A DNA stretch of 46,694 bases from Fibrobacter sp. UWB4 (GTDB taxonomy: Bacteria > Fibrobacterota > Fibrobacteria > Fibrobacterales > Fibrobacteraceae): assembly GCF_002210345.1 (NCBI RefSeq), contig NZ_MWQI01000014.1, positions 1-46,694 of the forward strand, read 5' to 3'. Below, piece by piece: positions 36,562 through 46,694 of the stretch. Both the position numbers and the translations under genes were made by a program. The notes below the pieces were generated by a model. The model was not told the origin of the DNA. It saw only the letters and a program-made list of their open reading frames with translations, and did no database searches. Numbering within the stretch: position 1 is the first letter of the stretch; the number at the start of each line of letters is the position of its first letter.

Positions 36562-39500
36562 ATGAACGATAATAGATCGTACAAGGAAATCCCTTTTCAA
36601 AATTTGGCGCCGATCGATAATGTCAAGGATGAGGTGTCTTTTAAAGCACTTGACTATGCGCTGTCCGAAAAGAAAATTCATAATGTGGCTCTGACAGGAA
36701 ACTATGGCTCTGGAAAAAGCTCTGTCTTGGCGAGCTATATTAAGCAACAGAAGGATAAACATCAATTTCTTAATGTTTCATTAGCGACTTTTGCTGTTGA
36801 AAAAAAAGATGAAAAGACTTTAAGTAGCCAGAAAAAGCTTCCTAAAACAACAATCCATGCAATAGAAAAGAGCATATTGCAACAGATTTTTTATACAAAA
36901 TCTGGTGAATGTTTTCCGTTTTCGCGATTTAATCGTGTGAAGAACATTGATAAAGCGAAAAGAATTTGGATTTCGATTTTTATCCTTATTATATCCATTG
37001 CGTCGATTGTCGTTGCAAAAACGAATTTTGAACAGATTAAGTTAGAAAATGTTACGCAGTTGAGTGGTTGGTCAATCGGGCTGCTTATTGTTGCTGTTGT
37101 TGGAATTATTGTTGCATTTATTGGCCTTTATCAAATCATCCCGTATATAAGCAGAATTGGATTTACAAAAATATTTGTTCCAAAAGCTGAAATAGAACTC
37201 GGAAAAAAGGATTCGGAATCCTTGCTGAATAAGCATCTGGACGAAATCTTGTATTTCTTTGAGGTTACAGATTATGATGTCGTTATCTTTGAAGACCTGG
37301 ATCGGTTTAAAAATACGGAAATATTTATAAAGCTTCGTGAATTGAATACGCTTCTTAATAACTATGAGAATGTTAAACGTAAGCGAAAAATTGTTTTTAT
37401 TTATGCGTTGCGCGATGAAGTGTTTAGGGATAGTTCCCGTACCAAGTTTTTTGACTTTATAATTCCTGTTATTCCTGTAATTAGTAACCAAAATTCTGGT
37501 GACGTTTTGGTTAATCTCAGAAAGCAAAATAAGGAAAGTGTGTTGAAGGAAATAGATGAAAATTTCCTTGAAGATATAGGCCTGTACGTAGATGATATGC
37601 GATTGTTGAAAAACAGCGTGAATGAATTTAAAATATATGACCAGAAAATAAATGTCGAAGATTATAAAACTAATGAGCAGGCTGATACTACCAAATTTCA
37701 CGATAAAACAAGCCGTGATCGGAATAAAATTTTTGCCTTGGTGCTGTACAAAAATCTGTATCCTAAAGATTTTGCAGATCTAATTTGTAACAAAGGCGAA
37801 CTGTATGAAGTGTTTAAAGAGAAAAAGCAATTGGCGGGTAAAAAAATACAGGAAATACAGAAAAAAATTCCTCCGTTGGAGGCGCAAATAGAAGTACTGG
37901 AAAAACAGGCTTTGAAAAATGTGAAAGAATTGCGTGTTTTATATGTTGCGACCGTATTTTCGAAAAGTTCGCGATATTCCTATGATATTGAAGATTTGTA
38001 TGATTATGTTTCGGATGAAAAATTTGAAGAATTTTGGAAACAAGGCTTGTCAAGTCATGTTGCTTTTTTAAGTGCTCAAGAAGAAATTGATCCGCAATAT
38101 ACGTATGATCAACGTGAAAAAATGATAAAGGATAAATCGAATGAAGAAATTGCTAAAATAAAAAAGCAAATTGACGAATGTCGAAATGCGATTTCTGATA
38201 TGGAACAGAAATCTATAAAAGATATGTTGCTGGATTTCCCTGAGATGGATTTTGTTTCTAAAATTAAATCCCCTCAAAAAAAGGAATTTGTTGATTATCT
38301 TTTGCGCCATGGATATATAGATGAAAATTATTCTCGCTATATCTCGTATTTTTATGGAAATTCATTAAGTGAAAATGATACGCGTTATTTACGGTTGATT
38401 AAGAATAACCAAGCTCCAAATGATGTCTTTCTGGAATTGAGCAATTTTGGAAAAGTTGTTAAGCGCATTCAGAAGCATGAGTGGAAATATTTTGCTGTTT
38501 TAAACCTTTCTTTATTGAAATATCTTTTGCAAATAAAAGACCGCCATTTAGATTATTTCTTAAATACGCTTTGGAAATATAAGCAGCAAAATTCAGATTG
38601 TACATTCTTAAGTGCATTGAATGTTGATTATGGTCTTACCCCAACTTTGTACAATAAGGTATATAAACTTTTTAATGATAAGAATAACTGGTTGCAAGTT
38701 CTTTTTGAAAAAGAAAGTAATAGTGTACGTTATAAATTCTTTAGATATACGGATTTTGAAGAGAAAAAAGATGATGTTGTAAATTTTCTGTCTAAGGATG
38801 TGTCTTTTTTGTATGATCCTGATGTGGAAGACGATAAAGAATTTGTTGCGGAAAAATTTGACACGTTAAATCTAAAGTTTAATCTTTTGAACGATACTCC
38901 TGAATATCCGATATATGATATTTTGTTGGAACAAAATGCGTATGTGATTTCAAAACAAAATTTTGATATAATTGTCAATCATGCTTTAGGGAATGATTTT
39001 AATCACCCCATTAATGATTATTATACACAAGTGTCCAAGATGCCGAATAAAAAGGTAAAGGCGTATGTAGACGAAAATATTGAAGATTTCGTTGATAAAG
39101 TTATGCTGTCGAGCGGTAAAAACATCGCAGAAAACGAAGATGCTTTTGTAGAATTGCTGAATATGGAGAACTTATCACGAGATACTAAAGCGGAACTAAT
39201 TAAAAAGAACGATTGTGAAATATCTGATTTGACAAAAGTATCACTTGATAAATTGAAATCTACAGACGCAAAACAGATGGATTTATGTGAATTACTTTTT
39301 GCTCGTAGACGGGTAAAACTGTCTTGGAAGAATGTTTTTGAAAGTTTCAAACATAATGGCAATACTTTGAAGGAATACCTGAAAGATTACTTGCGCGATA
39401 AAAAGATTGTAGGTGAAATCGTTGAAAGTGTACTTTTGACACCGGATGATTTGAATAATGGAAATAATGAGATTGCACACATTTTCTATCAAAGTCTTTT

Positions 39501-40203
39501 AACTATTGATAAAATGCCATTGGAATGCTTTTCTTCATTAATAAGCATGTGCCCTTGGAAAGTTGATGATTTTGAATTGACCCGGTTTTCACAAGAAAAA
39601 ATGAATTATTTGATAGAGTCGGGAATTCTAAAATTTACAGCTAAAAATTATGAACTTGTTAGAAGTCAGTTTTTAAGCCTGATTCCCAAATATGTTGGCT
39701 TGAACTTCGATGAGTTTATTGCGGCTTGTAAAAATTTATACGTGTCATTTGAGATATTAAGATTGTTGCTAGATAGTAGTGAGTTGGATAATGAACAAAA
39801 GAAAATCTTGCTGTCAACAGAATTTAATGCATGGCAAGATTTATGGAGGCTTGGTACTAATTGTGACTGGCTTGGCAAAAAGGTCATTGAATTGGGATAT
39901 ACTGGAAAAATATTTGTGCCTTTAAATTATATTGTCCGAAATTTGGATAATGCGTTAGATGTGAAGAAATTTATTTCGCTGCAAGAAGAGTATCTGAAAA
40001 ACAACGAAATTGCGGATTTTATATATTCTAAAGGCCTTGATCTTTATAGATCCTGCATTTCAAAGAATGGAAAAAATGTGAAAGTTCCTAATACTCCTGA
40101 AGATTTGGCGTTTGTGAAAGTGCTGAAGAAAAAGGGTTTAATTGCTGGTTTTGACGTAGAAAAGGATAGTATTGTGGTTACTCAGCTTTCTCCTAATCAA
40201 TAG
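36562..40203 (+). CDS. Large membrane-associated P-loop NTPase, YobI-like
   Basis: 1213 residues. The opening YKEIPFQNLAPIDNVKDEVS leads to Walker A ALTGNYGSGKSSVLASYI near 45-60. Two transmembrane segments lie inside the NTPase region (IWISIFILIISIASIVVA about 135-152; IGLLIVAVVGIIVAFIGLYQ about 172-191), then Walker B DVVIFEDLDRFKN near 240 and IVFIYALRDEVFRD as sensor region. This is the layout of YobI-like (KAP-related) NTPases. Residues about 415-460 and 520-555 look coiled-coil; the C-terminal 650 residues are probably alpha-helical repeats without a known domain. The gene is strikingly AT-rich against its neighbours, pointing to transfer. Such NTPases are suspected anti-phage sensors; that is inference here. 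Confidence 0.82.
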   Translation: MNDNRSYKEIPFQNLAPIDNVKDEVSFKALDYALSEKKIHNVALTGNYGSGKSSVLASYIKQQKDKHQFLNVSLATFAVEKKDEKTLSSQKKLPKTTIHAIEKSILQQIFYTKSGECFPFSRFNRVKNIDKAKRIWISIFILIISIASIVVAKTNFEQIKLENVTQLSGWSIGLLIVAVVGIIVAFIGLYQIIPYISRIGFTKIFVPKAEIELGKKDSESLLNKHLDEILYFFEVTDYDVVIFEDLDRFKNTEIFIKLRELNTLLNNYENVKRKRKIVFIYALRDEVFRDSSRTKFFDFIIPVIPVISNQNSGDVLVNLRKQNKESVLKEIDENFLEDIGLYVDDMRLLKNSVNEFKIYDQKINVEDYKTNEQADTTKFHDKTSRDRNKIFALVLYKNLYPKDFADLICNKGELYEVFKEKKQLAGKKIQEIQKKIPPLEAQIEVLEKQALKNVKELRVLYVATVFSKSSRYSYDIEDLYDYVSDEKFEEFWKQGLSSHVAFLSAQEEIDPQYTYDQREKMIKDKSNEEIAKIKKQIDECRNAISDMEQKSIKDMLLDFPEMDFVSKIKSPQKKEFVDYLLRHGYIDENYSRYISYFYGNSLSENDTRYLRLIKNNQAPNDVFLELSNFGKVVKRIQKHEWKYFAVLNLSLLKYLLQIKDRHLDYFLNTLWKYKQQNSDCTFLSALNVDYGLTPTLYNKVYKLFNDKNNWLQVLFEKESNSVRYKFFRYTDFEEKKDDVVNFLSKDVSFLYDPDVEDDKEFVAEKFDTLNLKFNLLNDTPEYPIYDILLEQNAYVISKQNFDIIVNHALGNDFNHPINDYYTQVSKMPNKKVKAYVDENIEDFVDKVMLSSGKNIAENEDAFVELLNMENLSRDTKAELIKKNDCEISDLTKVSLDKLKSTDAKQMDLCELLFARRRVKLSWKNVFESFKHNGNTLKEYLKDYLRDKKIVGEIVESVLLTPDDLNNGNNEIAHIFYQSLLTIDKMPLECFSSLISMCPWKVDDFELTRFSQEKMNYLIESGILKFTAKNYELVRSQFLSLIPKYVGLNFDEFIAACKNLYVSFEILRLLLDSSELDNEQKKILLSTEFNAWQDLWRLGTNCDWLGKKVIELGYTGKIFVPLNYIVRNLDNALDVKKFISLQEEYLKNNEIADFIYSKGLDLYRSCISKNGKNVKVPNTPEDLAFVKVLKKKGLIAGFDVEKDSIVVTQLSPNQ

Positions 40204-41824: not shown

Positions 41825-41854
41825 CGTCGTCCTGAGCGACGCGAAGGACCCAGT
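41825..41854. repeat. Dispersed repeat, TCGTCCTGA...GAAGGACCC type
   Basis: CGTCGTCCTGAGCGACGCGA followed by AGGACCCAGT. Confidence 0.7.
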
Positions 41855-41894
41855 GAAGTCTTGAATTGCATTGTCGCCTCCGCCGGAGCCTCCA

Positions 41895-41939
41895 TCTCGT
41901 CGTCCTGAGGGCGTAAGCCTGAAGGACCCAGTTATTTCT
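41895..41939. repeat. Dispersed repeat, TCGTCCTGAGGGCGTAAGCC type
   Basis: CGTCGTCCTGAGGGCGTAAG followed by CCTGAAGGACCCAGTTATTT. GGGCGTAAGCCTGA shares its plan with the copy at 45012-45052. Confidence 0.75.
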
Positions 41940-42011: not shown

Positions 42012-42029
42012 ACAATACGTTTGTATTGT
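42012..42029. promoter_or_regulatory. Conserved inverted repeat upstream of the first TIGR02147 gene
   Basis: ACAATAC/GTATTGT, 7 bp around GTTT, 80 bases upstream of the -35 box. Its counterpart at 46133-46151 has the same spacing and a compensating base-pair change. Confidence 0.6.
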
Positions 42030-42109
42030 GAAAATTGCTTAAATTTTTATAAAATTTTCTAAAAACTTTAAAATTTTTATAAAAATCAATATTTTGTGTT
42101 GTAAATCTA

Positions 42110-42138
42110 TTGCATTTTTAAAAAATAAGTTGTATATT
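42110..42138 (+). promoter_or_regulatory. Promoter of the TIGR02147-FISUMP operon
   Basis: TTGCAT (42110-42115), 17 bases, TATATT (42133-42138). Transcription would start near 42145, giving a leader of about 83 bases. The layout matches 46230-46258 exactly. Confidence 0.75.
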
Positions 42139-42227
42139 TGATTTCAAGAACGAAACGGACAAAAGAGCCGCAATTCGTTTGTTTTTACGGACCCTAAAAA
42201 ATTTAGGGATTGTCGTAAGGAGGAAAA

Positions 42228-43058
42228 ATGAAAGAAATACTAGAATATACGAGCTATCGCCAGTATATTGCGGACTACTATGCCGATAAAAAGGCGAGTT
42301 CTGCGTTTACCTGGCAAACGTTCGCTACCGAAGCTGGCTTTTCTTCACGCGTTTATCTAAAATACGTGAGTGAAGGCCGTTTTAACTTAAGCGATTCGGC
42401 GACCGCTCGCGTGGCAGATGCCATGCGATTGGTGGATTACGAACGCGAATATTTCACCGAAATGGTCAAGTTCGACCATGCAAAAACGGATGATGAAAAG
42501 AAGGCCGCTTTCAATAAAATGCTTGCGATTGCGGATGCCCACAAGGCGAAAATCTTGGAAGGCGATGCGTTCCGCTTTTTCGAAAGCTGGAAAAATCCGG
42601 TCATCCGTGAACTTGCTCCATCGATGCCTGGCGCAAAGCCACTTGCGCTTGCACATGCATGCCGCCCGGAAATTACGGCAGCCGAAGTCAGCGATGTGCT
42701 GAATTTCCTTGTCAAAGGCGGGTTCCTAAAAAAAGATGACGATGGCAATTACGTACAAACGGACAAGTCCTTGACGACGGGACCTATGGGTGTGACGCCG
42801 GTCGCTGTCCGTACGATGCACCGCCAAATGGGCGAACTTGCGCTTGAGGCAATCGAAGGTGTCGCTCAGGACAAGCGAAATTTTTCGGGTGTCACGTTCG
42901 GCATCACGAAAGAAGGCTACGATGAAATCGTGCAAGAAATCGCCGATTGCCGTAAAAAAGTTATTGCCATTGCTCGGAAAAACGCCGCCACGGACGAAGT
43001 CTACCGTCTGAACATGCAGCTTTTTCCGCTGACAAATAAACAGGAATTAAAAAAATAG
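42228..43058 (+). CDS. TIGR02147 family regulator (Fibrobacter-type)
   Basis: 276 residues, with AAGGAGG four bases before the ATG. The start EILEYTSYRQYIADYYADKK and the segment FSSRVYLKYVSEGRFNLSDS (an HTH-like stretch) are the hallmark of TIGR02147, a family described from Fibrobacter with many paralogs. The C-terminal half (about 140-276) has VSDVLNFLVKGGFLKKDDDG, resembling a winged-helix part, then TMHRQMGELALEAIE. It is presumably a DNA-binding regulator of the surface lipoprotein gene 14 bases downstream; direct proof is lacking. A paralog about three-quarters identical in its first 128 residues begins at 46310. Confidence 0.88.
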   Translation: MKEILEYTSYRQYIADYYADKKASSAFTWQTFATEAGFSSRVYLKYVSEGRFNLSDSATARVADAMRLVDYEREYFTEMVKFDHAKTDDEKKAAFNKMLAIADAHKAKILEGDAFRFFESWKNPVIRELAPSMPGAKPLALAHACRPEITAAEVSDVLNFLVKGGFLKKDDDGNYVQTDKSLTTGPMGVTPVAVRTMHRQMGELALEAIEGVAQDKRNFSGVTFGITKEGYDEIVQEIADCRKKVIAIARKNAATDEVYRLNMQLFPLTNKQELKK

Positions 43059-43072
43059 AGTTGGAGGAAACT

Positions 43073-44878
43073 ATGAGTTTCTCGAAATTTAGCGGACAAT
43101 TTGTCTGCACGATGGCGATGCTGCTCGCCTTTGTGTTCGCAGCGTGTTCTGAAAATTTAGCCGGCGGCACCGTCGAAGAAACAGGTGTGTATGCAAATCT
43201 TGAAAATATTACGATTCTCGGGAAGACGCACATGACAAAAACATTGGGCGGAGAAGGTTCCTATGTTGGGCGGATTGTTGTTGCGGGGCTTGAAAAAGGT
43301 TCAGTTGTTTCTCTTTATCAGTTGGATCCTAAATCGTTCGCAGTATCTGATTCTTCGATTACTGTGGTTGTTGATGACGAAGGTGTATTTGCCTTCCAAA
43401 ATGTAACGCTTGAAAGTCCTTATGTTTTGATATCTGTGGTAAGGCCGGGTTCCGTAAGCATGTATCCTTATACCGTTCTTGCGGATGTGCGTGATTCGGA
43501 TGGAGTGAATGTCGATATTTTGACGCATCTTGAAGCCTTGCGGGGGCTTTATCTCGTGCAGTCGGGAACGCCGTTTGTCCAGGCGAAAAAGCAGGCGCGA
43601 GCCGATGTGCTGTCGGCGTTCGGAATGTCCGGAGTTGCCGATGATATTAGGGACACGGATGCTCTGGAATATGCGGCGATGATTTCTGCGCTTACTAATG
43701 TTTTGCCTGCAAGTGCAATAAGTATTTACGCCATTAATATGCCTTCGGAAAATTCCAATATGAATAAGTTGTTTGAAGCGATTGCTGAGCGGGGAACTTT
43801 CTTGAATGTTGATTCTGCGTTGGATGAGGACTTTATTGATATTGTTTTTAGGCAAACTGATGGGCTGAGGGAGTATTTCAGCGTTCCTGCCATAGCGTAT
43901 CAGAAGTTGAGTGATGAATGGGCTCGTGACTATCAAATAAGGTTGCGCGTGGTGGATTTCTATGCCGGAATGCTTGCGACTGCATTTGGTGCTGGACCGT
44001 GTGATCAGGGCCATGAAGGAAATGTCTTTGAGGCTCCGAGAGGGGGCGAGGATGGCGTTTTTGTGCCGGCCTATAATTTGGTCTGTCGTTCTGGGAAATG
44101 GAATTTGGTTCATAAGGAGATTGAGCATTCGATGGGTTCCATGGTGGACGACCGCGATGGACAAGTTTACAAGACGACTACAATTGATATTAATGGTGTG
44201 ACGCAGACATGGATGGCCGAAAACTTGCGCTATGATGGAGCCGAAGGTGCGTCTTGCGGTGATGATGGCTGTAACTATAATTTTCTTGATGCGATGGGCT
44301 TGGATAGTTCCTATTTCATTTTTACTTATGCATATGAATCCTATGAGGCTTGTGTGGATTCTTTCCGAAATGTTGTTCAGGAGCCTTATGGTGGTACTGA
44401 AGTCTATTGTGCGAAGATTATGGCCGATCCGTGGGTCGAGCTTGATACGACCAAAGTGGATGTGAGCGATACTGCAAGGCTTCAAGGTGTGTGTCCAGTT
44501 GGATGGAGGCTCTCGAATCCTCGTGATTGGAAAAATCTGCTGTCGTTTGTTCAGGCTGAATTTGGCACGGATGATAATTCAAGTACACTTTATCTGTATG
44601 ACCTTGCACCGTTTGGCAATCCCACAGGTGTCGGGTTGACTGCGCGTTATTCTATCATGTGGCTAGGGCATACTTCTGATTTTGTGCCGGATCCTTCTTC
44701 GGGGCTTCTTTCGGTGTATGGAACTGATCTTGCAACGGCTCCGGGGTACGCTGATATTTATGACGATTATGGTTATGTTAAGTGGGAGGATTTAGTAAAT
44801 AGTGTCTATATAGGAAATAAGGGGATGAATTTTGCATCTGGAAATTCGCAAAATCTTGTCCGTTGCATCAAGAATTAA
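43073..44878 (+). CDS. FISUMP-domain lipoprotein (TIGR02145)
   Basis: 601 residues from ATG 43073 with GGAGG five bases upstream. A lipoprotein signal ends in LLAFVFAAC (Cys about 25). Residues about 40-150 form a carboxypeptidase-regulatory-like or Ig-like beta domain (GGEGSYVGRIVVAGLEKGSV, then VFAFQNVTLESPYVLISVV), 150-330 are helical, and the C-terminal FISUMP domain starts near 360: VDDRDGQVYKTTTIDINGVT, QTWMAENLRYDG, GVCPVGWRLSNPRDWKNLL and the end QNLVRCIKN. Probably displayed on the outer membrane. Function unknown. It forms an operon with the TIGR02147 regulator and is closed by a terminator. Confidence 0.88.
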   Translation: MSFSKFSGQFVCTMAMLLAFVFAACSENLAGGTVEETGVYANLENITILGKTHMTKTLGGEGSYVGRIVVAGLEKGSVVSLYQLDPKSFAVSDSSITVVVDDEGVFAFQNVTLESPYVLISVVRPGSVSMYPYTVLADVRDSDGVNVDILTHLEALRGLYLVQSGTPFVQAKKQARADVLSAFGMSGVADDIRDTDALEYAAMISALTNVLPASAISIYAINMPSENSNMNKLFEAIAERGTFLNVDSALDEDFIDIVFRQTDGLREYFSVPAIAYQKLSDEWARDYQIRLRVVDFYAGMLATAFGAGPCDQGHEGNVFEAPRGGEDGVFVPAYNLVCRSGKWNLVHKEIEHSMGSMVDDRDGQVYKTTTIDINGVTQTWMAENLRYDGAEGASCGDDGCNYNFLDAMGLDSSYFIFTYAYESYEACVDSFRNVVQEPYGGTEVYCAKIMADPWVELDTTKVDVSDTARLQGVCPVGWRLSNPRDWKNLLSFVQAEFGTDDNSSTLYLYDLAPFGNPTGVGLTARYSIMWLGHTSDFVPDPSSGLLSVYGTDLATAPGYADIYDDYGYVKWEDLVNSVYIGNKGMNFASGNSQNLVRCIKN

Positions 44879-44921
44879 TCGTTCTCGTTGAGCTGGAATG
44901 ATTGGTGAAAAAGGAGGAAAA

Positions 44922-44953
44922 GGGAAGGCGAGCTGCGGCCCGCCTTCTTTTAT
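44922..44953 (+). terminator. Terminator of the TIGR02147-FISUMP operon
   Basis: GAAGGCG pairs with CGCCTTC (44924-44930 with 44941-44947), followed by TTTTAT. Confidence 0.75.
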
Positions 44954-44979
44954 ATTACAATGAAATTTTGATTGACGTT

Positions 44980-45010
44980 GTCATGCCCGACTTGATCGGG
45001 AATCTCCCTT
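44980..45010. repeat. Dispersed palindromic repeat, GTCATGCCCGA type
   Basis: GTCATGCCCGACTTGATCGG then GAATCTCCCTT. Confidence 0.75.
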
Positions 45011-45011
45011 T

Positions 45012-45052
45012 CGTCATCCTGAGGGCGTAAGCCCGAAGGATCCAGTTATTTC
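45012..45052. repeat. Dispersed repeat overlapping the GSCFA stop codon
   Basis: CGTCATCCTGAGGGCGTAAG followed by CCCGAAGGATCCAGTTATTT. The TTA at 45046-45048 is the GSCFA stop (TAA on the minus strand), so the repeat supplies it. Confidence 0.75.
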
Positions 45053-46107
45053 TCATTATTGAGTTTCAGCCCAGCAATTTCTTTCTCGAGTTCTGCGGCT
45101 TGTGCGGCGAGTTTCTGTGCGAATTCTCGTGAAGCGGGCGCCTGCGAATCGACAATACGGTGGTTCGCCATTTTCATGAACTTTTCTACCTTGCGGATAT
45201 CTTCGTGCGTTTTCTCGTTGCAGTACGTTCCCGCCATGCGCTCGAAAATGTATTCTTCCGCCTTTTTTGACAAATGAATCATGTCGTCATTGTAAAAGCG
45301 GTAGTCGCGCAGCTCGTCCATCACAATCTCGTAACTCGGGAAGTAGGTGACGGTTGCTGCAGATTCCGTGGCGCACTCCCTTATGACCTTTTCTATAGCA
45401 AGTTGCAAAGTCGCTTTCGAGAGCGTGTTCTCGTGTGCGCCATCGCTCAAGTGCCGTAACGGCGAAACCGTAAAGACAGTGTGTAGTTCGCGATTCTTGC
45501 CGAGTTCGTCATTGCGAACCGAAGGCGAAGCAATCCGGTCACGTTTTATTTTCTGCAAATCATGCACGATGCTTTTCAGCGCTTCGGCTGCGTGGTCCAC
45601 GGAAATCATCTTGCGGATGAACAAGTTTGGATTTTGCCTATGGCAATTTGAAACGGCGATCCCGCTCTCTTTCAAAAAATACACGAACGCAGTTCCGAGC
45701 GTAATAAATACGACGTCGGCTTTTTGCAAAAACTCTCGCGCCTCGTGAGTGGCCGCATTCAGCTTTTCGATGCATTCCTCGCGAGTCGCCGCCGAAAGTG
45801 AACTGTGCGCATTCCAGCAGTGCCAAGGGCCGCAAATCTCGTTACGGTTCTCCGAAACGCCCAATCGCATGTCCTGGAAAACATCCGCTTCGCCAAATTT
45901 TTTCCCGTTTGCAATCGCCTTGATCTGCATCGCTGCCGAAAGCGGGTTGTAAACTGTTCCGAACGGATTTGCCAAAACATTGAATTTCCGCGCCCTAAAC
46001 TGCGCCGAGATGTTGTCGGCAAAGCACGACCCGAAAAATGCGAGTCTGGATTTGTAGTCAATCTGCCAATCTGCTGCCGGAATATCGATTTTCGTAAAAA
46101 AGTCCAT
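45046..46107 (-). CDS. GSCFA-domain protein carrying an in-frame repeat insertion
   Basis: 353 residues. The name-giving motif is FFGSCFADNISAQ near residue 26, followed by NVLANPFGTVYNPLS, FITLGTAFVYF, TVFTVSPLRHLSDGAHENTL and YFPSYEIVMDELRDYRFYND. GSCFA proteins are SGNH/GDSL-hydrolase-like and probably act on carbohydrate esters; substrates are unknown. Just before TVFTVSPLRH, residues IASPSVRNDELGKNREL are encoded by a CATTGCGA...GAAGCAATC palindromic repeat (45509-45541), an insertion compared with the family pattern. A coiled-coil-like tail ends the protein, whose stop lies in another repeat. TATATT is 6 bases upstream of the ATG. Confidence 0.86.
   Translation of the reverse strand: MDFFTKIDIPAADWQIDYKSRLAFFGSCFADNISAQFRARKFNVLANPFGTVYNPLSAAMQIKAIANGKKFGEADVFQDMRLGVSENRNEICGPWHCWNAHSSLSAATREECIEKLNAATHEAREFLQKADVVFITLGTAFVYFLKESGIAVSNCHRQNPNLFIRKMISVDHAAEALKSIVHDLQKIKRDRIASPSVRNDELGKNRELHTVFTVSPLRHLSDGAHENTLSKATLQLAIEKVIRECATESAATVTYFPSYEIVMDELRDYRFYNDDMIHLSKKAEEYIFERMAGTYCNEKTHEDIRKVEKFMKMANHRIVDSQAPASREFAQKLAAQAAELEKEIAGLKLNNEK
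45509..45541. repeat. Palindromic repeat inserted in frame inside the GSCFA gene
   Basis: TCATTGCGAACCGAAGGCGA with AGCAATCC forms an imperfect palindrome ATTGC...GCAAT. It is of the general CATTGCGA/GAAGCAATC type widespread in bacterial intergenic regions, here translated. Confidence 0.75.
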
Positions 46108-46119
46108 GAAGTAAATATA
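46108..46119 (-). promoter_or_regulatory. -10 box 6 nt before the GSCFA gene start
   Basis: On the minus strand TATATT (46114-46119) then 6 bases then ATG at 46107. The inverted repeat at 46133-46151 lies where the -35 region would be. Confidence 0.45.
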
Positions 46120-46132
46120 GTAGGATAATTCT

Positions 46133-46151
46133 ACAATATTCTTTATATTGT
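46133..46151. promoter_or_regulatory. Conserved inverted repeat upstream of the second TIGR02147 gene
   Basis: ACAATAT/ATATTGT, 7 bp around TCTTT, 78 bases upstream of the -35 box, between divergent GSCFA and TIGR02147 genes. Confidence 0.6.
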
Positions 46152-46229
46152 GAAAATCTTAAATTTTCTAATCATTATTCAAAATCATTAAAATTCTTTT
46201 AAAAATCAATAAAATATATTGTAAAACTA

Positions 46230-46258
46230 TTGATTTTTAAAAATTAAAGAGCTATATT
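46230..46258 (+). promoter_or_regulatory. Promoter of the second TIGR02147 gene
   Basis: TTGATT (46230-46235), 17 bases, TATATT (46253-46258). The AT-rich surroundings align with 42080-42138. Confidence 0.75.
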
Positions 46259-46309
46259 TAAAATATCAAACAATCAGCCTGAGAAAGAGACTGAGTGTAG
46301 GGAGGAAAA

Positions 46310-46694
46310 ATGAAAGATATACTTGAATATAGGGACTACCGCCAGTATATCGCAGACTACTACGCCGATCGAAAGGCGAAGTCGGCGTTTTCTTGGCAGG
46401 AGTTCGCCAAAACGGCGGGGTTTTCGTCGCCGGTTTATTTGAAATACGTGAGTGAAGGCCGCTTCAATTTGAGCGAAGAGGCTGCAACCCGCACAGCGCG
46501 GGCTATGCATCTTGCTGATTTCGAGTGCGAGTTCTTTGTCGAAATGGTCAAATTCGATCATGCGAAAAACGACACCGAAAAGCGAGCCGCATTCAGCAAA
46601 ATGATTTCGATTGCGGATGCGAATAAGGCTAAAATCCTGGAAGGCGAGTCGTTCCGCTTTTTTGAAGACTGGAAAAATCCGGTGCTCCGTGAAC
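46310..46694 (+). CDS. TIGR02147 family regulator, N-terminal part (runs off the window)
   Basis: 128 residues are visible, open to the right edge. GGAGG precedes the ATG. It begins DILEYRDYRQYIADYYADRK and contains FSSPVYLKYVSEGRFNLSEE. It differs from the copy at 42228 at about 33 of the first 128 positions. Its upstream region keeps the same inverted repeat, promoter layout and a hairpin just before the ribosome site (TCAGCCT/AGACTGA, one mismatch). A FISUMP lipoprotein gene would be expected beyond the window. Confidence 0.88.
   Translation, partial: MKDILEYRDYRQYIADYYADRKAKSAFSWQEFAKTAGFSSPVYLKYVSEGRFNLSEEAATRTARAMHLADFECEFFVEMVKFDHAKNDTEKRAAFSKMISIADANKAKILEGESFRFFEDWKNPVLRE

Follow-up and report, generated by a model that had tools for sequence, protein, structure and literature searches.

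Two regulator units at a contig end

The window analysed here is a stretch of 46,694 nucleotides from Fibrobacter sp. UWB4, and it forms the end of one contig in a genome of 3.58 Mb and 18 contigs. Its last part carries two units headed by genes for putative DNA-binding regulators, both members of TIGR02147 (Fsuc_second) / PF14394 (DUF4423). Regulator 1 (positions 42228..43058, forward strand) has 276 amino acids (aa), with an N-terminal helix-turn-helix (HTH) domain and a C-terminal DUF4423 region. It scores 305.1 bits against TIGR02147, for which the cut-off is 50 bits, and 107.8 bits against PF14394 over residues 103-268 (gathering score 30). A FISUMP-domain lipoprotein gene (43061..44878, forward strand, ATG probably at 43073) follows in the same operon, 2 base pairs (bp) after regulator 1. 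Regulator 2 (46310..46694, forward strand) is interrupted by the assembly break. Its first 128 aa score 139 bits against TIGR02147, its PF14394 region would lie beyond the contig end, and the rest of the gene is found on contig C3, whose start overlaps window positions 46640-46694 exactly over 55 bp.

Both genes have a promoter of the form TTGxxT-N17-TATATT, which agrees to the base with a preliminary description of this DNA. In gene 1 (42110..42138, forward strand; aligned in orthologs), the -35 element TTGCAT is at 42110-42115 and the -10 element TATATT at 42133-42138. In gene 2 (46230..46258, forward strand), TTGATT is at 46230-46235 and TATATT at 46253-46258. Each promoter is preceded by a palindrome, ACAATAC-GTTT-GTATTGT at 42012..42029 and ACAATAT-TCTTT-ATATTGT at 46133..46151 (both forward strand, each sequence unique in the genome). 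The distances from palindrome end to -35 start, 81 bp for gene 1 and 79 bp for gene 2, are those already reported, and the A/T-rich blocks in between do align across the two genes. The pattern ACAATAY-N3-5-RTATTGT occurs genome-wide only in these two promoters, so the palindrome is not a chance match; the reversed-pattern control gave 0.

An additional copy of one palindrome arm, missed earlier, lies in direct orientation beside the -35 element of both promoters. In gene 1 the right part of the palindrome is a distal half-site, TGTATTGT (42022-42029), and its direct repeat, the proximal half-site TGTGTTGT (42095..42102, forward strand), follows 73 bp downstream, across an A/T-rich linker (42030..42094). 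In gene 2 the distal half-site TATATTGT (46144-46151) is repeated exactly 71 bp downstream at 46215..46222 (forward strand), after a linker at 46152..46214. The left parts of the palindromes, at 42012-42018 (an optional element) and 46133-46139, are inverted arms. A pattern for the direct repeat, TATTGTRAA-N58-70-TRTTGTRAA, is likewise restricted to these two promoters genome-wide.

Half-site architecture in TIGR02147 promoters

The core element of these promoters is a half-site (xTGTAnnnn type) that occurs twice in the same orientation, once beside the -35 element and once about seven helical turns upstream. When 17 paralogs from the same genome are aligned on the half-site beside -35, a second direct copy appears 70-73 bp upstream, with exceptions at 75 bp in L016 and 60 bp in L019. 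The shorter distance in L019 is about one helical turn less than in the other paralogs and retains the phase. In many of the 17 a third copy, inverted, lies 82-86 bp upstream, and L007, L009, L016, L021 and L022 have a fourth, direct copy 91-94 bp above the proximal one. Half-site copies within a promoter agree at 7.59 of 9 positions, compared with 5.78 (standard deviation 0.25) for permuted promoters, a level reached in none of 100,000 trials. The inverted (left) arm, too, tracks the right arm found in the same promoter (0 of 100,000 permutations).

The same spacing emerges when no sites are chosen. Among distances of 9-140 bp, 70 bp is the most enriched for direct repeats, with 11 of 33 promoters where 3.5 are expected. 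A naive scan for triple matches (direct plus inverted 8-mers) gave no separation from other spacings because of the A/T linker; composition-weighted scoring with a required -10 box did separate them. Of 174 TIGR02147 promoters in this class, 53% had a composite score of at least 16, as did 1.1% of block-shuffled sequences and none of 104 promoters of other genes.

Units in tandem arrays from 20 genomes have the direct repeat as a general feature, and both copies change together by subfamily (ATATTGT, GTGTTGT, TATCACA, ATGTCGT, TATTGC and others). In some subfamilies, such as the TATGATA group, agreement between the copies is lower. An inverted arm, scored at 6 or more matches of 8, is present in 53 of 139 promoters, compared with 3 in a shifted control. 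Most promoters with this arm belong to an ortholog of a window gene or to one of several dispersed paralogs. Other genera of the host's family use the same layout. For example, TGTATCAT occurs twice, 72-75 bp apart, next to proteins with A or S at residue 52, and TGTATTCT is paired with K at that residue.

These comparisons change the standing of the palindrome. It was rejected as the conserved unit, since the direct repeat is general and the inverted arm optional, and judged by sequence it is an extended form of a two-half-site operator that occurs more generally. The change from C-G to T-A in both arms, previously taken as compensatory, is present; it reflects paralogs with differing half-site sequences. 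Most gene 1 orthologs have GTGTTGT as the right arm, so that their palindrome is imperfect. The expectation that ACAATAY-N-RTATTGT would recur upstream of other TIGR02147 genes failed in a genome-wide search, since half-site sequences differ from one paralog to the next.

AA/TT steps in the linkers recur every 9.5-10 bp (z 8.9 for 14 linkers of this genome), and the phasing power is 1.08 compared with 0.39 in 127 AT-rich control stretches. This phasing, at about 9.75 bp, was measured over sets of linkers, and it suggests that the linker DNA is intrinsically curved.

Some paralogs outside this class (class A), namely L026, L027, L003, L002, L024 and L028, have different repeated motifs upstream, including TGTGGACAAAAATGTCCAC (L026), two copies of TGTGGAC (L003), AAGTGTTCTCGAAGTGTTC (L002) and two copies of TTTACAACGC (L028). 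These are possibly further private operators of another layout. A TIGR02147 pseudogene with an in-frame TAG (L061, ~1560-2220; G000:C1:810698-811219) retains an operator-like GAGTCATATAC and a linker resembling that of L019.

Co-variation of half-sites and DNA-binding domains

An AlphaFold2 model of regulator 1 (mean predicted local distance difference test score 87.7; at least 90 in residues 1-90) predicts a lambda-repressor-like HTH domain at the N-terminus and a winged-helix fold in the C-terminal DUF4423 region. Helices are predicted at residues 29-36, 43-48 and 56-65, of which 43-48 would be the HTH recognition helix. The HTH domain matches DNA-bound HigA (Z 10.0), the P22 c2-DNA complex (Z 8.7) and many other XRE proteins (Z 7-9). 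Sequence searches yielded less. No curated HTH model exceeded its cut-off, the only candidate being CYNS_N (cyanase N-terminal HTH) at 18.8 bits for a threshold of 27.1, and a search for relatives with solved structures gave a best E of 0.3. Foldseek returned domain-level HTH and winged-helix matches and nothing at E <0.001.

Of all protein columns, the one most informative about the half-site is residue 52 (residual z 4.95 for mutual information), which the model places in the loop just past the recognition helix. Owing to clade structure, other columns carry mutual information as well, and joint changes were therefore counted on a tree built only from the C-terminal part of the protein (residues 75-270), with about 270 columns compared. 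Residue 52 and base 5 change together on 8 branches (p=2.9e-7), which is rank 1 of the ~270 columns. The same test puts residue 46 at the top for base 6, and residue 43 in third place for base 5 and in second place for bases 5-6.

The correspondences are simple in form. For bases 5-6, F52 goes with TG (122/126), K52 with TC (60/68) and A52 with CA (4/4); S52 is mostly found with CA, L52 mostly with GA, and Y52 with CG or TG. At base 3, P41 goes with A (143/148), D41 with G (18/18) and R41 with G (22/28), a strong tabulated association, yet residue 41 is not at the top of the tree-based test. In the window, regulator 1 (R41, F52) is paired with GTGTTGT/GTATTGT and regulator 2 (P41, F52) with ATATTGT. 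In held-out promoters from other genera, 23 of 32 dinucleotides are as predicted from residue 52, a count that includes two visible register slips (L220, L227) left uncorrected and that 129 of 20,000 label shuffles equalled.

The half-sites are thus private to each unit, duplicated within it and evolving with the adjacent HTH domain. The preliminary description had proposed that TIGR02147 proteins bind the palindrome. Because HTH residues co-vary with bases, these proteins very probably do bind the upstream element, of which the palindrome is not the conserved feature.

Downstream genes and genomic setting

The lipoprotein encoded after regulator 1 scores 62.4 bits against TIGR02145 (cut-off 41.65) and 28.8 bits against PF09603 (cut-off 33.9). 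A gene with a lipoprotein signal directly follows 32 of the 33 TIGR02147 genes examined, at distances of -32 to +51 bp, frequently with a 4-bp overlap. Genome-wide counts were obtained by pattern searches, in which the operator patterns of two further paralogs gave one extra genome match and one control match. Given operators that are unique genome-wide, the most economical regulon would be the regulator's own operon. The earlier suggestion that each regulator controls its own operon fits well with an element that is private to that operon, which also carries the lipoprotein gene. The genome as a whole has 63 FISUMP-domain matches, many in genes that do not adjoin TIGR02147. The aligned promoters give no hint of a switch for phase variation (an invertible element, slipped-strand repeat or similar), and no search was aimed at one.

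TIGR02147 genes are indeed multiplied in Fibrobacter, as had been stated: this genome has 35 matches, corresponding to ~33-34 genes, and relatives carry arrays. The array of the window goes on in contig C3 past regulator 2, where L010 is the third unit, and other Fibrobacter genomes have related arrays of several units each. Sampled phylum-wide, the family is found in 141 of 151 genomes, with dozens of copies in some.

Further upstream in the window, positions 36562-40203 encode a protein of 1213 aa that contains a P-loop NTPase domain of YobI-like type (PF20693, E 1.4e-113). A near-identical interspersed intergenic element, TCGTCATCCTGAGGGCGTAAGCCYGAAGGAYCCAGTT, is present at ~41827-41870, ~41899-41935 and ~45013-45050, and at other loci of the genome too.

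Proposed gene control mechanism

We propose that the half-sites are private autoregulatory operators of regulator-lipoprotein operons, in which two direct half-sites are possibly bridged and would, by a small margin, sooner mediate repression than activation; we put the probability of this reading at about three in four. Each unit would be a self-regulated operon in which a TIGR02147 DNA-binding protein is encoded together with a surface lipoprotein. Its operator would be the regulator's own, with half-sites just above -35 and at about -120, some seven helical turns apart, read by the N-terminal HTH domain. The frequent extra inverted half-site would turn the distal site into a palindrome. After duplication, the HTH domain (residues 41, 43, 46 and 52) and all half-sites of that unit would have co-diverged, leaving no cross-talk among the paralogs of one genome. 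A dimer or tetramer may join the half-sites over the pre-curved A-tract linker to form a very small DNA loop. This loop might hold a near-consensus promoter low until a signal is read by the C-terminal DUF4423 region.

Several points weigh against this proposal. The case for the looping step consists of geometry and phasing. About half of the TIGR02147 genes in this genome, those outside class A, have no such layout. In the 17-promoter permutation test the proximal sites were chosen visually. The automatic scan demands a -10 box and a spacing of 59-61 or 68-76, and these demands account for part of the spacing distribution that it yields. Few cases were held out, and most of them have A, S or K at residue 52. 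Finally, L007, L009 and L019 have no visible -35 hexamer and fit activation better than repression.

Repression is somewhat favoured because most array units have a near-consensus promoter; their TTGACT-N17-TATATT should need no activator. Positive autoregulation from the same private operator is a serious competitor, one we would still rate below even odds. The protein on the proximal half-site could contact sigma or the C-terminal domain of the alpha subunit in a class II-like manner, and the distal site with the curved DNA could wrap back onto RNA polymerase. The proximal half-site stops a few bp short of -35, as such a contact would have it, and in L007, L009 and L019 a half-site sits ~25-26 bp above -10, in place of the -35 element.

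A different common regulator or a nucleoid protein might bind the repeats, with TIGR02147 genes merely its targets. A layout and linker common to the paralogs would suit such a binder, which is nonetheless improbable, given that half-sites differ between paralogs, track HTH residues of the adjacent protein and make up operators unique in the genome. Matching arms might also be remnants of gene and promoter duplication rather than selected sites: the window genes are paralogous, their linkers align, and arrays originate by tandem duplication. Inheritance cannot raise agreement within a promoter above agreement between promoters, nor can it produce tree branches on which residue 52 and the half-site change jointly, which makes this account very unlikely. 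The palindrome could also act in RNA, as a hairpin or terminator of the gene before it, and the inverted repeat and its intergenic location speak for this. The idea was rejected and is the least credible of all, for the arms are A/T-rich and 7 bp long, the inverted arm is missing from most homologous promoters, which retain the direct repeat, and the gene upstream of unit 2 lies on the opposite strand.

Relationship to known systems

Autoregulators with co-evolved operators are an already known kind of system. In the arabinose operon, AraC bridges the distant half-sites of araO2 and araI. The units described here resemble it in having two far half-sites on one helix face (70-73 bp apart), one of them beside -35, and in the possibility of bridging. 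They differ in the ~71-bp spacing, the A-tract-phased linker, the regulator gene inside the controlled operon and the lambda-type HTH domain at the N-terminus; an AraC-type DNA-binding domain was not found in the Pfam scan, which returned only DUF4423 and the weak CYNS_N match. Lambda and P22 repressors, HigA and XRE-type autoregulators share the N-terminal HTH fold (Z 8.7-10), operators in their own promoters and one specificity per paralog. Unlike those proteins, the regulators studied here have a DUF4423 winged-helix region following the HTH domain, spaced direct half-sites, and a lipoprotein gene as partner instead of toxin or phage genes. Paralogous extracytoplasmic function (ECF) sigma factors form many orthogonal self-regulated circuits per genome, with co-diverged DNA sites. 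Here the regulator is a DNA-binding protein rather than a sigma factor, and there is no anti-sigma gene.

The literature searched yielded no DNA target or mechanism for TIGR02147 or DUF4423. In the open PubMed Central (PMC) set, outside which most subscription papers fall, no paper on the function or control of TIGR02147 or FISUMP was found, and DUF4423 appears only in a Bdellovibrio proteome table (PMC12546842). The principal papers on the F. succinogenes genome and envelope (PMC3079729, PMC4619616, PMC6851124) do not discuss TIGR02147 in the parts searched. The name Fib_succ_major occurs in a paper on diversity-generating retroelements (PMC4159848). On the evidence of sequence comparison, what is new here is the first operator assignment found for TIGR02147/DUF4423, its putatively curved two-half-site layout, a candidate specificity code and the scale of the system.

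It is quite possible, if somewhat less likely than not, that Fibrobacterota maintain up to several dozen mutually orthogonal regulator-operator pairs per genome, all on a single plan with half-sites bridged over phased A-tracts and a short code at residues 41, 43, 46 and 52. Each pair would be tied to one surface lipoprotein, so that these proteins would be switched singly. If true, such natural orthogonal pairs would supply synthetic gene circuits with useful components. TIGR02147 ranks among the largest families of paralogs in a phylum that is a major degrader of fibre. With a proposed operator, a candidate code for specificity and a lipoprotein as direct genetic partner assigned to the family, Fibrobacter's choice of surface proteins becomes testable.

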